Of a stretch of DNA of 64,000 nucleotides, positions 37,154-42,484 are shown piece after piece. The stretch is from an uncultured Eubacteriales bacterium (lineage in GTDB: Bacteria > Bacillota > Clostridia > Peptostreptococcales > Anaerovoracaceae), in NCBI GenBank assembly GCA_902776285.1, contig CACYPK010000007.1, forward strand, positions 1-64,000, written 5' to 3'. A model generated the notes under the pieces. It saw only the letters and a program-made list of their open reading frames with translations. It was not told the DNA's origin and searched no databases. Each line of letters opens with the position of its first letter. Positions within the stretch are counted from its first letter, which is position 1. Position numbers and translations under genes: made by a program.

Positions 37154-39718
37154 TCACACCGCCGGACCGTTTTTCGGATTGGGATCATTATCCGGAGCGA
37201 TCCGCGGAATTATAAATCCGCTTCCCGTACCGGCCAGTGTGCAGACAGCAATATAATACAGGGCCGCGGAAGCAACGCCTACCCATATATTGATGAACGG
37301 CTCCGTGTTCAGAATCCTCAGTATCCCTGATATAAGCAGCAGTACCGAACCGGAAGAAGCCCGGGTGGAATATGTAAAGGCGGACACCACGAGCGCCGCT
37401 CCCGTAACGACATAAGCTATGTCAAGATACCGATAATATCCGGAATGGAACGTCATAATTTTCATGAGAAAGATCAGCCCCGCTGACAAAATCACCCATA
37501 CGATGATCCGGAATACCCCCGGCTTGTCCACCCTGATGAAGTTAACACAGAGCAGGATAAACGCGGCGATCTGCAGCTCGGTCCCCACGGTAACGTTCGT
37601 TGTCATCATAATATCCGCGCCGGCCAGCAGAAGCACGGCGAAGATGATGATCATATAGAATGGGTTTTTTACTCTCCGGTATCCGTAAAACGCGATGACC
37701 AGAGTCAGAAGCCCGATAACACCCTTGAAAATGTTGATGACTCCCGGATGAGAGTGATATAGAGCAGTATAAAACTCCTTTGCGAGGAAGATCTGCATGA
37801 TCAGAAAGACACAGATGATCGGAAGAGGCCGGAATTTGGTATCTTTCGGGATATACCCGCGGTCACGCTTATAGCGATGCCGGATCCATATCGACAACAG
37901 GGATACGGCAAACAAAACGGTTGTGATCAGCAGGACTCCCGCCATAAGGATAAGGATGATCACATCTCTCCAGCTTAAGGCATCCGGATAACTGTAAACA
38001 TCGCGCAGCAGATCGACATCTGTAAGGGTCTTTTCCGTTTGAAACTGCGCGAACTCTTTGAGAGAACCTCCGGGAGCCGCGGTACCTCCTGATCCCTCGT
38101 ACACGATATTCATCACATCACCGGTTTTCATATCACTGGAATACTTGACCGTTTCTTCCGGCGCTTGTCTTCCGGTCCGGCATCCTGCCTCATAAACATC
38201 CACGGTCTGATCTCTGTTGGAGAGTATGGATACGCTGTAATCGCGATCACGCGGGATCAGTACTGAGATCTTGTCATCGCGTACGCTGAAATAATGATAG
38301 GAGCTGACATCTCTGTCTCCGCTCTCCAGCCATTCCACTTTCTCCTTATCCCTGTAAAGCGTGACAGTCGTATCACCGCCGACATAAAGCAGGGTATACG
38401 CGTCATAATCACTGTACAGATCCGCGGCATCATCCACAGAGAATATCCAGGATACATATATCTCAGGAGTGTGTGTCTGCACGAAATTCGATCCGACAGA
38501 CGCGTTGCGGTTAAACCGCCTGAATGAATTCCCCGCGGTAGCATAGTCCAGCAGCATATACGTGATCTGATTCATCATAACATTCGCTTCCAACCGGTTC
38601 TCATCGTTGATGAGGATCGGATCATCTGCCATGTCCAGAAGACGTGACATAATGCTTATGACATCATGCTTTTCCCAAAGGGCGATAAGATTATTCTGCA
38701 GACTGCCGGAATAGGTTTCCACATCAGGGCAGATAGTCAGCAGGCAGTCCATAAGGATCCTCAGCTGGTTGTTCATGTCGGCATTTGCCCAATAGGGAAT
38801 GCCGGTGATGTCCTCGTAGATCTTGTCTGCTTCCTTCCGTTTTTCCCAGAAATCAGAATCTGTTTCCATCGTAGGGGTATAATAAGTGATCCCATACCGG
38901 GAATACCCCCAATCCTTGAAAGGAACATTCGGTACCGGATCCATCTTTCCGCAGATATTGAAGATGTTCCTGTATGGTTTCGGTTCCGTGTCGCGTACGG
39001 TCATCGGTGTCGCGAATGTGTAGGCAAATACGTTTTCCTGTGAGAAAGTATCCGAGTCTGATAAAAGCGACGCGCTGATATTTGAAACAGCCGCGGCTCT
39101 CGAGAAGCCGGAGATCCATATCTTTATATTTCCCTTCAGATGATTCTCGGAAATATAGCCGAACACGCGGTCATACACAAGATGCGCGGCGCCATAGAAT
39201 CCTTCAGGGTTCTCTCCGGTCCCGACAGAAAGATTGGACTCCCATTCATCCATGTATCCCTGGCCGCAAACACCGACAGCGATCAGCTCAAATGATCCAT
39301 CCCCGTCGCTGACCGTCTGATGTCCCATGACCGTAGAAATGGTATACATGCTCGGATTTTTATCATAATCATCACTGCGAAGATCGGTAAATCCTGCCTG
39401 TTCCATAAAAGAGCGGGCATTATAGTCTGTCCCTTTTTTTGCTTCATCATCCTGTTCGTTGGCGCGGAATGCTGAAGTCGCGAGTCCAAGAGACAACTTC
39501 GCCAGATCATGATTATAATCACGCGCGTCATTCCTGAACCATGAAAGGCTGAAAGGGACCTTAAGCGAATACTCCACCCCGGTAGTCGGCACATAGAAAG
39601 TATCGGTCAGGTCCGTTGTTTCCGCGGATCCCGCTTTTGCGCATACCGGAGCAGCCTGACTCAGCAGTAAGGCTAAAGCAAGACAACATATCAAGCCCTT
39701 TTTCATTATCTTTGACAT
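37154..39718 (-). CDS. Secreted lipase-like domain fused to polytopic membrane domain
   Basis: 854 aa. A signal peptide (about 5-28) leads to an outer alpha/beta-hydrolase region. It has S206 in SGFSRAAAVS and D260 in GKMDPVPNVP, the latter like class 3 lipases (DPVPRLP). The C-terminus (about 595-840) has eight or nine membrane helices. Phrases such as LLAGADIMM and LLLISGILRIL recall the lysoplasmalogenase family YhhN/TMEM86, but this is a weak match by eye. If right, the protein would deacylate lipid outside and split vinyl-ether or lysolipid in the membrane. The catalytic His is not located. Confidence 0.6.
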   Translation of the reverse strand: MSKIMKKGLICCLALALLLSQAAPVCAKAGSAETTDLTDTFYVPTTGVEYSLKVPFSLSWFRNDARDYNHDLAKLSLGLATSAFRANEQDDEAKKGTDYNARSFMEQAGFTDLRSDDYDKNPSMYTISTVMGHQTVSDGDGSFELIAVGVCGQGYMDEWESNLSVGTGENPEGFYGAAHLVYDRVFGYISENHLKGNIKIWISGFSRAAAVSNISASLLSDSDTFSQENVFAYTFATPMTVRDTEPKPYRNIFNICGKMDPVPNVPFKDWGYSRYGITYYTPTMETDSDFWEKRKEADKIYEDITGIPYWANADMNNQLRILMDCLLTICPDVETYSGSLQNNLIALWEKHDVISIMSRLLDMADDPILINDENRLEANVMMNQITYMLLDYATAGNSFRRFNRNASVGSNFVQTHTPEIYVSWIFSVDDAADLYSDYDAYTLLYVGGDTTVTLYRDKEKVEWLESGDRDVSSYHYFSVRDDKISVLIPRDRDYSVSILSNRDQTVDVYEAGCRTGRQAPEETVKYSSDMKTGDVMNIVYEGSGGTAAPGGSLKEFAQFQTEKTLTDVDLLRDVYSYPDALSWRDVIILILMAGVLLITTVLFAVSLLSIWIRHRYKRDRGYIPKDTKFRPLPIICVFLIMQIFLAKEFYTALYHSHPGVINIFKGVIGLLTLVIAFYGYRRVKNPFYMIIIFAVLLLAGADIMMTTNVTVGTELQIAAFILLCVNFIRVDKPGVFRIIVWVILSAGLIFLMKIMTFHSGYYRYLDIAYVVTGAALVVSAFTYSTRASSGSVLLLISGILRILNTEPFINIWVGVASAALYYIAVCTLAGTGSGFIIPRIAPDNDPNPKNGPAV

Positions 39719-39883: not shown

Positions 39884-40414
39884 TTAAAAATCGGAGTCCG
39901 GCCGGCCCATGTTTTTCCAGCCGAAGCGTATCACTGAAATGATTATCGATAAAAGCGTGATCGTCTCGTTCAGCACTCCGCCCCAGGATCTTATGAGCAC
40001 GTCATACAGGAGTACACAAGGAGAACCTATGAACTGTGACAGCCTTATCTTCTGCGCGTTGTTGCTCCAGTATCCTATCGTAGTCACCGCTACCATGATG
40101 AACGGAAGCAGGCTTATGATGCCATCCCAGGTGTATACAGTCATCGCAGTCAGAAGCGCCAGGATAACCAGCATCGTTGATCTTCGGTCTACCCACTTCC
40201 AGTCGGCCCTCTTAACAAGAAGCAGATTCCTTATTATATTGATGATAAGGCTGACCGCTCCGGTATACGCGCCCATAATAAAAAACTGCACACAGAAAAT
40301 GATGCAGCCGATCATCTGGCACAGGAACAGCGCCTTATTCGATTTTATCTGATATGAGGCGATGAAGAACGCGACTCCAACGAAGCCTATCGCCTGAACA
40401 GCCAGCTCGCTCAT
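39884..40414 (-). CDS. YgjV-family inner membrane protein
   Basis: 176 aa with about six membrane helices. The N-terminal FVGVAFFIASYQIKSNKALF and the RNLLLVKRADWKW segment fit the YgjV family. Function unknown. The ATG lacks a clear ribosome site. It follows the fusion gene by about 20 nt on the same strand and is probably co-transcribed with it. Confidence 0.8.
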   Translation of the reverse strand: MSELAVQAIGFVGVAFFIASYQIKSNKALFLCQMIGCIIFCVQFFIMGAYTGAVSLIINIIRNLLLVKRADWKWVDRRSTMLVILALLTAMTVYTWDGIISLLPFIMVAVTTIGYWSNNAQKIRLSQFIGSPCVLLYDVLIRSWGGVLNETITLLSIIISVIRFGWKNMGRPDSDF

Positions 40415-40433: not shown

Positions 40434-42314
40434 TCAAGAATCCTCTGTCCTCTGTTTTAAATTTTGATCCTCTTCTTCGTCGTATCTGTCTGCCAGCAGC
40501 TTGATCACCACCATCGACGCGATGGACAGTCCTACGTAAGCAATTGCCGCCGCGGCAGTCCTGCTTATATCGAGGTCTCCAAGGCCGCGTCCTATCATCG
40601 CGTAGAGAATGATGTCCGGCAGTATCCCCAGAAGACTGCCTGCTGTGTACTGCAGCAGTTTAACTCTCGCGGCGCCCATATACATGCTCCCTATGTCGTA
40701 GTTCATCATCTTCAGGAGCCTGAGCAGCAGCACAAAGATGAACGGTTTCTCGTTCTTCAGCCTGACAAGTCCGCGCAGATTCGAATACTTCTCTTCGATG
40801 TCCTGCAGCTGCTCGCCGGCAAGCCTGTTGCCGATAAAATATCCTTCGAACATCATGACAAGGGCGCCCGCGATGTTCATCGCGATGGCTGCAGGGAGGC
40901 TGAACAGTGTTCCGTTTGCCAGGAAGAGAACCCCCGAGTAAAAGAACACCGAAAGCGTCTTCAGCGCAAACATCATCAGCATCACTATAGCCGCCAGATA
41001 CGGTTCTGAAGGTGTATATGACAATATGGCGCTGAGAGATATCCTGTCGTGCAGGCAAAGCGCGACTATCATGACCATGACCCACAGCGAAATGACGAGC
41101 GTCCTTGATACAGCGGAAACATTTGCCGAATAATCATCACCCCAAACGACCTGCAGGTACATGCGCGTGTACATCAGCAGCGTAAAAAGCACAATTACAG
41201 AGCATGTGATGATCATCAGATTGGCCGCCGGCCTTGGGATGCTCTGCCACAGGATCAGCACCGCAGTGACAGCGGTCATGGAAGCCTTGCAGATCTTTCC
41301 ATACCACTTCGAACTATACGCCCTGTCATATCTTGAGAACAGAATATAACTGTATATAATCTGGCTCAGCTCCCTGAACATCATTACCATCAGAAGGAGC
41401 CACATCCATCTGTACTCAGGCACCAGACATATTATGAGCACGGCAATCAGCACCTTGCTTACCGCCGAGTCGAAGAACTTTCCGAAATCCGTAACGCAGC
41501 CTGTCCGCCTCGCGACCGCTCCGTCGATCAGGTCGGTAATTACCGCAACTACGATCACGCCGAAGCTGCCCGCATACATCTTTCCGAGATACAGGCGTAC
41601 GATAACCGGGATCAGAAGCAGTCTGAACAGTGTTATGGCATTAGGAAGATTTACTATATTCTTTCTGCTCATCACCTCCCGCAGCTTTTCACCGACCTCC
41701 GGGCTTGCGTCATTGAATGACAGGCCCCATGCGGCGAAGCTGACAGGAAGCGCAACCACAGCGTCGACTATTGAATGCTGTTTAACAAAGAGTGTGGATA
41801 CACATATGAAGAATACGGTCACAGCCATAGCGGTCTTGGCCCGGATCGACAATTTCTCATTCGCGTACATCGCGGCGAACATAATGCCCATCGAGCCGAT
41901 AACGTGCATGGACGGGCAAACGTTGGTGGGTGTGTCGACAAGGTATATCATCGATACTATCCATGTGAGCATGTTATCTCGCTCAAAGCTGTCCGGCCTC
42001 AGCGAGTGGCAGCTCGGATATATAAGAAACATCGCAAAAGACATGATCGCTCCGACGATGAAGAACTGCATCATCTTCCTGAATACTTCCCTGTCATTTC
42101 TGTATAGGTAAATGATCATTGCCACCGTGACAACGTGCCATGAAAGATATGGGATCACAAAAATTTCGCTGAAAGGTATCAGGTCGTCCATGAACATATG
42201 GATGGTGTGATACTCAGCGCCTATATTGACCCTTTCAACGATCAAGAAAGCGAGAAGATACAGTGGCAGAAACCACAGATATTGATGATCATTATCTCTT
42301 TTTCCGCTGTTCAT
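40434..42314 (-). CDS. PAP2 / CDP-alcohol phosphatidyltransferase / VTT triple-domain membrane protein
   Basis: 626 aa from the ATG at 42314; the frame is open 40 codons further but that stretch looks non-coding. Domain 1 (about 40-200) is PAP2-like, with CPSMH at 133-137 and KQHSIVD at 178-184. Domain 2 (about 220-400) is a CDP-alcohol phosphatidyltransferase with D261, D264, G265, A268, R269, G278 and D282; the eighth position, normally the catalytic Asp, is S286. Domain 3 (about 440-610) resembles VTT/DedA proteins. All three families work on phospholipids or their transbilayer movement. The substituted Asp suggests altered or lost transferase chemistry. Confidence 0.8.
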   Translation of the reverse strand: MNSGKRDNDHQYLWFLPLYLLAFLIVERVNIGAEYHTIHMFMDDLIPFSEIFVIPYLSWHVVTVAMIIYLYRNDREVFRKMMQFFIVGAIMSFAMFLIYPSCHSLRPDSFERDNMLTWIVSMIYLVDTPTNVCPSMHVIGSMGIMFAAMYANEKLSIRAKTAMAVTVFFICVSTLFVKQHSIVDAVVALPVSFAAWGLSFNDASPEVGEKLREVMSRKNIVNLPNAITLFRLLLIPVIVRLYLGKMYAGSFGVIVVAVITDLIDGAVARRTGCVTDFGKFFDSAVSKVLIAVLIICLVPEYRWMWLLLMVMMFRELSQIIYSYILFSRYDRAYSSKWYGKICKASMTAVTAVLILWQSIPRPAANLMIITCSVIVLFTLLMYTRMYLQVVWGDDYSANVSAVSRTLVISLWVMVMIVALCLHDRISLSAILSYTPSEPYLAAIVMLMMFALKTLSVFFYSGVLFLANGTLFSLPAAIAMNIAGALVMMFEGYFIGNRLAGEQLQDIEEKYSNLRGLVRLKNEKPFIFVLLLRLLKMMNYDIGSMYMGAARVKLLQYTAGSLLGILPDIILYAMIGRGLGDLDISRTAAAAIAYVGLSIASMVVIKLLADRYDEEEDQNLKQRTEDS

Positions 42315-42382
42315 AACGCATAGTATACCACAAACGGCACTCCTGTTTGCCCCCTCCGTTTTTACCGCAATCACTGCAAAAT

Positions 42383-42409: not shown

Positions 42410-42484
42410 TGTAGATGTGCTTTGCCCTATTCATGTTTTCATGGACCGGAACACCGAAAGAAGCGTTTATCTCCGTATAAATAA

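Follow-up and report, generated by a model that had tools for sequence, protein, structure and literature searches.

A PAP2/CDP-alcohol phosphatidyltransferase/VTT triple fusion with serine at the position of the general-base aspartate

The window, by which is meant the whole stretch of 64,000 nucleotides analysed here, carries on its minus strand an open reading frame that runs from an ATG at 42314 to a stop codon at 40434-40436 and encodes a protein of 626 amino acids (Table 1). The original prediction had described the protein as a fusion of PAP2, CDP-alcohol phosphatidyltransferase (CDP-AP), and VTT domains, and all three pass the curated cut-offs of Pfam: PAP2_3 (PF14378) at residues 36-197 (28.6 bits against a cut-off of 27, E = 1.4e-6), CDP-OH_P_transf (PF01066) at residues 222-373 (97.6 bits against 22, E = 1.2e-27), and VTT (PF09335) at residues 461-576 (48.4 bits against 33.9, E = 1.6e-12). 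The score for PAP2_3 is only marginal in the window protein; it is 42.6 and 34.2 in the more distant relatives from genomes G313 and G040, respectively. The architecture is genuinely new, built from known families. The orthologues are recorded as coming from Mogibacterium and uncultured Clostridiales, several of them sampled from the guts of sheep, goats, and horses.

An in-frame ATG lies upstream, at 42434, but it is disfavoured as the start, because the orthologues share a start at 42314 with the sequence MN(S/G/N)G and with TATAMT just 5' to it. The shared start codon is ATG in most orthologues and GTG in some. Most of the 12 orthologues have a near-consensus extended -10 sequence, TGTGGTATAMT, separated from the start codon by about 7 nt, and the genes farther upstream differ. 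The element falls within 42315-42345 (minus strand) of the window and at the same place in loci L003-L006, L008, L009, L011, and L012, and in several orthologues a hairpin of varying sequence immediately abuts it. The nearness of the extended -10 to the start codon (GTG in some cases) suggests a leaderless mRNA. The gene for a YgjV-family membrane protein that follows the fusion gene is possibly cotranscribed with it; a YgjV gene lies downstream of the orthologue in one other genome only (G003). A search of the neighbourhoods of the orthologues for a conserved operon partner found none, the neighbours differing from species to species. Two genes downstream of the fusion gene, at 37154-39718 (minus strand), is a gene whose product, a membrane protein of 854 amino acids, contains a lipase-type domain of class 3 (PF01764).

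Table 1. Features of the fusion gene and its surroundings (positions in the window)
Feature	Position	Strand	Evidence
Gene for 626-aa PAP2_3 - CDP-AP (pseudo) - VTT protein	40434..42314	-	Full-length orthologues in 11 further genomes, 83-95% identity
Putative extended -10 promoter, TGTGGTATACT, 7 nt 5' of start codon	42322..42332	-	TATAMT at same place in 11/12 orthologues
PAP2_3 domain, residues 8-204, SMSr/Aur1-like fold	41703..42293	-	Pfam; VIA-align Z 14.8 to SMSr (8ijq)
His137 codon, PSMH motif of PAP2	41904..41906	-	Alignment of orthologues
His180 codon, presumed PAP2 nucleophile, STLFVKQHSIVD motif	41775..41777	-	Alignment of orthologues
Asp184 codon, Asp of PAP2 triad	41763..41765	-	Alignment of orthologues
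CDP-alcohol phosphatidyltransferase domain, residues 221-395, PgsA-like fold, all of signature but D4	41130..41654	-	Pfam E 1.2e-27; Z 18.7, 164 aligned residues, to PgsA (7drk)
Asp261 codon, D1 of CDP-AP signature	41532..41534	-	Asp in 12/12 orthologues
Ser286 codon (AGC), D4 position, replacing general-base Asp	41457..41459	-	Ser in 12/12 orthologues, AGC or AGT
VTT (DedA/TVP38) domain, residues 431-600, COG0398-like	40515..41024	-	Pfam 48.4 bits; charged-residue list
YgjV-family membrane protein, downstream, 19-nt gap	39884..40414	-	Pfam PF10688, E 2e-37

The catalytic residues expected of a PAP2 enzyme are intact in the window protein (R106 and P107; P134, S135, and H137; S173 and T174; H180; D184), and those listed, R106, P107, H137, H180, and D184 included, are invariant in all 15 PAP2-bearing rows of the alignment. 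An AlphaFold model was made from an alignment of 48 sequences (mean pLDDT 85, pTM 0.68), and its N-terminal domain was matched by VIA-align to human SMSr (8ijq, Z 14.8), inositol-phosphorylceramide synthase (9vj4, Z 14.6), and Aur1 (9ivc, Z 14.1), with further matches to LpxE (6ebu, Z 13.0) and a B. subtilis protein (5jki, Z 10.9). The domain thus resembles the SMSr/Aur1 proteins (Z 14-15) in its six-helix PAP2-type fold and its His-His-Asp site, but unlike them it is bacterial, is only 8-10% identical in sequence, and has neither a SAM domain nor a Kei1 partner. The PAP2-type site of SMSr hydrolyses PA, PI, PE, and PC (PMC7988496). The supposition that PAP2 does the chemistry of the fusion protein is plausible, as its active-site residues are intact.

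Among close relatives of the PAP2 domain of the window, some stand alone, some have a PlsC-type acyltransferase or a HAD hydrolase as fusion partner, and some are encoded next to a PlsC-type gene, company that fits a role in glycerolipid metabolism. Fusions of this PAP2 subtype to other enzymes (PlsC-type acyltransferase-PAP2 or HAD hydrolase-PAP2) are found at L051:7744-9234 and L082:3976-5526, both confirmed by Pfam, and more such fusions at L084:4818-6284 and in the 506-aa frames of L136 and L141. In three relatives in which the genes are split (L043:4567-8003, L044:4800-8548, and L045:5871-9925), a TetR regulator gene and a gene for VTT alone diverge from a cluster with PAP2, PlsC-like, and 2-oxoacid-dehydrogenase-acyltransferase-like (CAT-like) genes.

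CDP-APs are a near-universal family of phospholipid makers. The signature of the family in the window protein is D261-LI-D264-G-AV-A-R269-(x8)-G278-KFF-D282-SAV-S286-K287, in which the first three aspartates (D1-D3) are intact and the fourth (D4) is Ser286. This is exactly as the original prediction had read it, a motif DxxDGxxAR(x8)GxxxD in which the last Asp, the general base, is replaced by S286. The role assigned to that Asp agrees with published mutagenesis: the substitution D93N at D4 of the PIP synthase of M. tuberculosis (MtPIPS) nearly abolishes activity and leaves substrate binding uncompromised (PMC4634129). By analogy with the MtPIPS mutant, which loses activity and keeps binding, the middle domain of the window protein should bind substrate without turning it over.

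In the model, the middle domain superimposes on bacterial PgsA (7drk) with a Z of 18.7 and 2.4 Å over 164 residues at 24% identity, and it shares with PgsA (7drj/7drk) not only the fold but also D1-D3 and the Arg and Lys of the signature. It differs in having Ser for the general-base Asp and in sharing its chain with PAP2 on one side and VTT on the other, and it scores 64.8 against a cut-off of 109.1 with the profile of bacterial PgsA (TIGR00560). The only other CDP-AP of the genome is an intact PgsA with Asp at D4. The middle domain is a CDP-AP by descent and fold, and since it lacks the general base, it is not classed here as a working one. The literature was searched for CDP-AP pseudoenzymes and none was found, in a search that covered subscription journals poorly.

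Ser286 is not peculiar to one strain. It is fixed in all 12 of the species of the window's genus that carry the gene, encoded by AGC in some and by AGT in others, which rules out a private mutation or a sequencing error. D1, D2, D3, and K287 are likewise invariant among the 12 orthologues, as are the Gly, Ala, Arg, and second Gly of the signature, and the block TGCVTDFGKFFDSAVSK is the same in all of them. The fixation of Ser in homologues of the same architecture holds within the genus and fails beyond it: the other triple fusion, found in another genus (G313), has His at D4.

To gauge how often such a motif is encountered, 398 Bacillota genomes were scanned for versions with D1-D3 intact and a D4 codon whose first base is A, C, or T, a definition that leaves out replacements by Ala, Gly, Val, or Glu. 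There were seven matches, only two of them like a CDP-AP: the gene of the window and a partial frame of 113 amino acids with His at D4. The version with Asp at D4 gave 78 matches, in only 51 genomes of the Bacillota phylum. A chance motif is ruled out by these counts together with the fold match and the HMM score. The partial frame (L121 of genome G788, 1417-1755 of the reverse complement) is an independent replacement of D4; a transposase is encoded at the same locus.

Four more distant relatives set the fusion in context. The triple fusion of G313, which belongs to the same family as the window's genus, is 51% identical to the window protein and keeps D1-D3. G040 encodes a 41%-identical PAP2-CDP-AP fusion without VTT, in which the Asp at D4 is kept and D1, D2, and D3 are lost, the domain still matching PF01066 (26 bits). 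In G010, PAP2 is fused to VTT with no middle domain at all. G152, of the same family, has a CDP-AP-VTT fusion (L069:5730-6959), 36% identical over query residues 212-594; it is like the window protein in its middle and C-terminal domains but has no PAP2, and all four of its aspartates are kept, so with Asp at D4 it looks catalytically intact.

In a maximum-likelihood tree, the CDP-AP domains fused to PAP2 form one clade (ultrafast bootstrap 98, SH-aLRT 93), within which G040 is a long branch whose placement is less sure. The nearest unfused CDP-APs beside the clade have the complete motif, D4 included. Judged by the residues aligned, then, the CDP-AP catalytic site has been lost across the whole PAP2-fused clade, and it has been broken by at least two routes, since D4 is replaced in the window protein (Ser) and in G313 (His) and G040 has lost D1-D3, all while the PAP2 residues stayed invariant. 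What recurs in proteins fused to PAP2 is thus the breakage of the CDP-AP site, not a special serine.

The middle domain is nonetheless maintained. Among the 12 orthologues (dS about 0.9), dN/dS is 0.052 for PAP2, 0.090 for CDP-AP, and 0.070 for VTT, values that mean strong purifying selection on each of the three, the low one for CDP-AP indicating that it too is kept. At greater distances, however, the middle domain is conserved less well than the domains on either side. The fusion itself is missing from most of the genus and family, where the best three or fewer candidates per genome were scored. A survey of 391 Clostridia and 398 Bacillota genomes on the same basis, in which a very diverged fusion could be missed, found single-domain matches only, apart from the genome of the window.

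Turning to the C-terminal domain, K452, R532, and D540 are kept in every VTT-bearing row of the alignment. No Asp or Glu occurs between residues 438 and 489, the region of the first re-entrant helix. The UndP flippases of COG0586 carry acidic residues at the tip of this helix, and these are absent in COG0398 (PMC10127716), so the domain is probably of the COG0398 (scramblase-like) type rather than the COG0586 (UndP flippase) type. COG0586 includes DedA-PAP2 fusions (PMC10127716), which, like the window protein, have DedA/VTT and PAP2 within one protein; in the window protein, in contrast, the acidic flippase residues are lacking and a CDP-AP domain sits between the two. Identity with an UndP-recycling DedA-PAP2 flippase is disfavoured on the strength of the missing residues. 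A PDB fold search with the VTT model, made to find a solved DedA/VTT relative, gave no clear match.

The helices of the model bear on how the protein lies in the membrane. Positively charged loops adjoin the PAP2 helices opposite the PAP2 active site, on the side where the CDP-AP motif also lies. Under the positive-inside rule, these charges place the two active sites most likely on opposite faces of the membrane, and they agree with a PAP2 site that would be extracytoplasmic and a CDP-AP site that would be cytoplasmic.

How might such a protein work? We give an even chance to its being a one-chain lipid machine, composed of an active, outward-facing PAP2, a pseudoenzyme CDP-AP that serves as a dock or sensor, and a scramblase-like VTT. 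PAP2_3, which belongs to the SMSr/Aur1 fold class, would be enzymatically active, as a lipid phosphatase or as a head-group phosphotransferase, and its His-His-Asp site would lie outside the cytoplasm. The middle domain, keeping the signature for binding Mg and CDP-lipid (D1-D3, R269, T228, and K287), would no longer join an alcohol to CDP-diacylglycerol, because the general base is gone; its loss of transfer activity is what the MtPIPS mutant leads one to expect. Most likely it would serve for docking or sensing, by binding a CDP-lipid or phospholipid on the cytoplasmic side of the membrane. Lipid binding by the middle domain, also part of the original prediction, is plausible given that loss of D4 in MtPIPS spares the binding of substrate. 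The COG0398-type VTT would presumably scramble lipids, giving them access to the outward PAP2 site or shifting the product. Candidates for the substrate are PA, PGP, or another phospholipid. The PAP2_3 score of the window protein, so near its cut-off, counts against the lipid machine, although the score is higher in G313 and the fold match is strong. Two of the relatives count against it as well. G010, with PAP2-VTT and nothing in the middle, shows that some lineages can do without the middle domain, which may be a mere scaffold, and since G040 has lost the metal-binding aspartates, binding of lipid by the former active site cannot be a general property.

Perhaps, then, the middle domain binds no lipid and has a purely structural or dimerising part to play, as a relic that keeps PAP2 and VTT joined or that associates with the intact PgsA encoded elsewhere in the genome. 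CDP-APs are dimers (PMC6506517), the intact PgsA is the one other CDP-AP of the genome, G010 shows that PAP2 and VTT can be joined directly, and D1-D3 are wrecked in G040 with the PAP2 site intact. The CDP-AP domain is also the less conserved of the two, 45% identical to that of the window in G313 vs 59% for PAP2, and 34% vs 51% in G040. Yet a signature strictly kept in 12 of 12 orthologues, along with the invariant TGCVTDFGKFFDSAVSK, exceeds what a spacer would need, and we consider this explanation unlikely, though the least so of the three alternatives weighed here. The same invariance, of D1-D3 and of the nucleotide-contacting residues in the 12 orthologues, might instead reflect a middle domain that is still catalytic but with altered chemistry, Ser (His in G313) or a metal-bound water substituting for the base; it might, for example, hydrolyse CDP-diacylglycerol and so supply PAP2 with phosphatidic acid. 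The His of G313 could serve as a base, and PA phosphatases are found within the PAP2 fold class. Against this, even the change from D to N at D4 nearly abolishes the activity of MtPIPS (PMC4634129), and with D4 differing between genera (Ser vs His) and the metal ligands lost in G040, no common new chemistry is conserved; altered catalysis is accordingly improbable.

A different solution would make the fusion protein the missing PGP phosphatase: PgsA makes PGP, the pseudo-CDP-AP binds it, VTT flips it, and PAP2 dephosphorylates it. In 11 genomes there is no match to PgpA (PF04608) and none above the cut-off to the YqeG type (TIGR01668), PgsA is the nearest fold match of the middle domain, and some PAP2 enzymes, such as the B. 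subtilis protein matched above (5jki, Z 10.9), are PGP phosphatases. However, most of the 11 genomes have at least one other canonical PAP2 protein that could serve, HAD-type PGP phosphatases more distant than TIGR01668 may exist in them, and most of the genus and family lack the fusion yet presumably make PG. The idea deserves no more credence than altered catalysis.

Returning to the lipid machine with its docking or sensing middle domain, a broader proposal can be put forward, tentatively and with somewhat more doubt than hope: that a clade of CDP-AP pseudoenzymes was born on the fusion to PAP2, the broken site becoming a sensor of CDP-lipid or phospholipid, or a loading dock, that gates an outward head-group phosphatase or transferase and a scramblase. 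One protein would then take a lipid from the inner leaflet, move it, and remodel its head group. Head-group chemistry and the movement of lipids across the bilayer are as a rule the work of separate proteins, and the fusion joins them in one chain. It also offers a handle on the function of bacterial VTT proteins of COG0398. As to the purpose of a dead CDP-AP site, a natural series lies within one family: the intact standalone enzyme, the intact CDP-AP-VTT, D4 as His, D4 as Ser, the loss of D1-D3, and PAP2-VTT.
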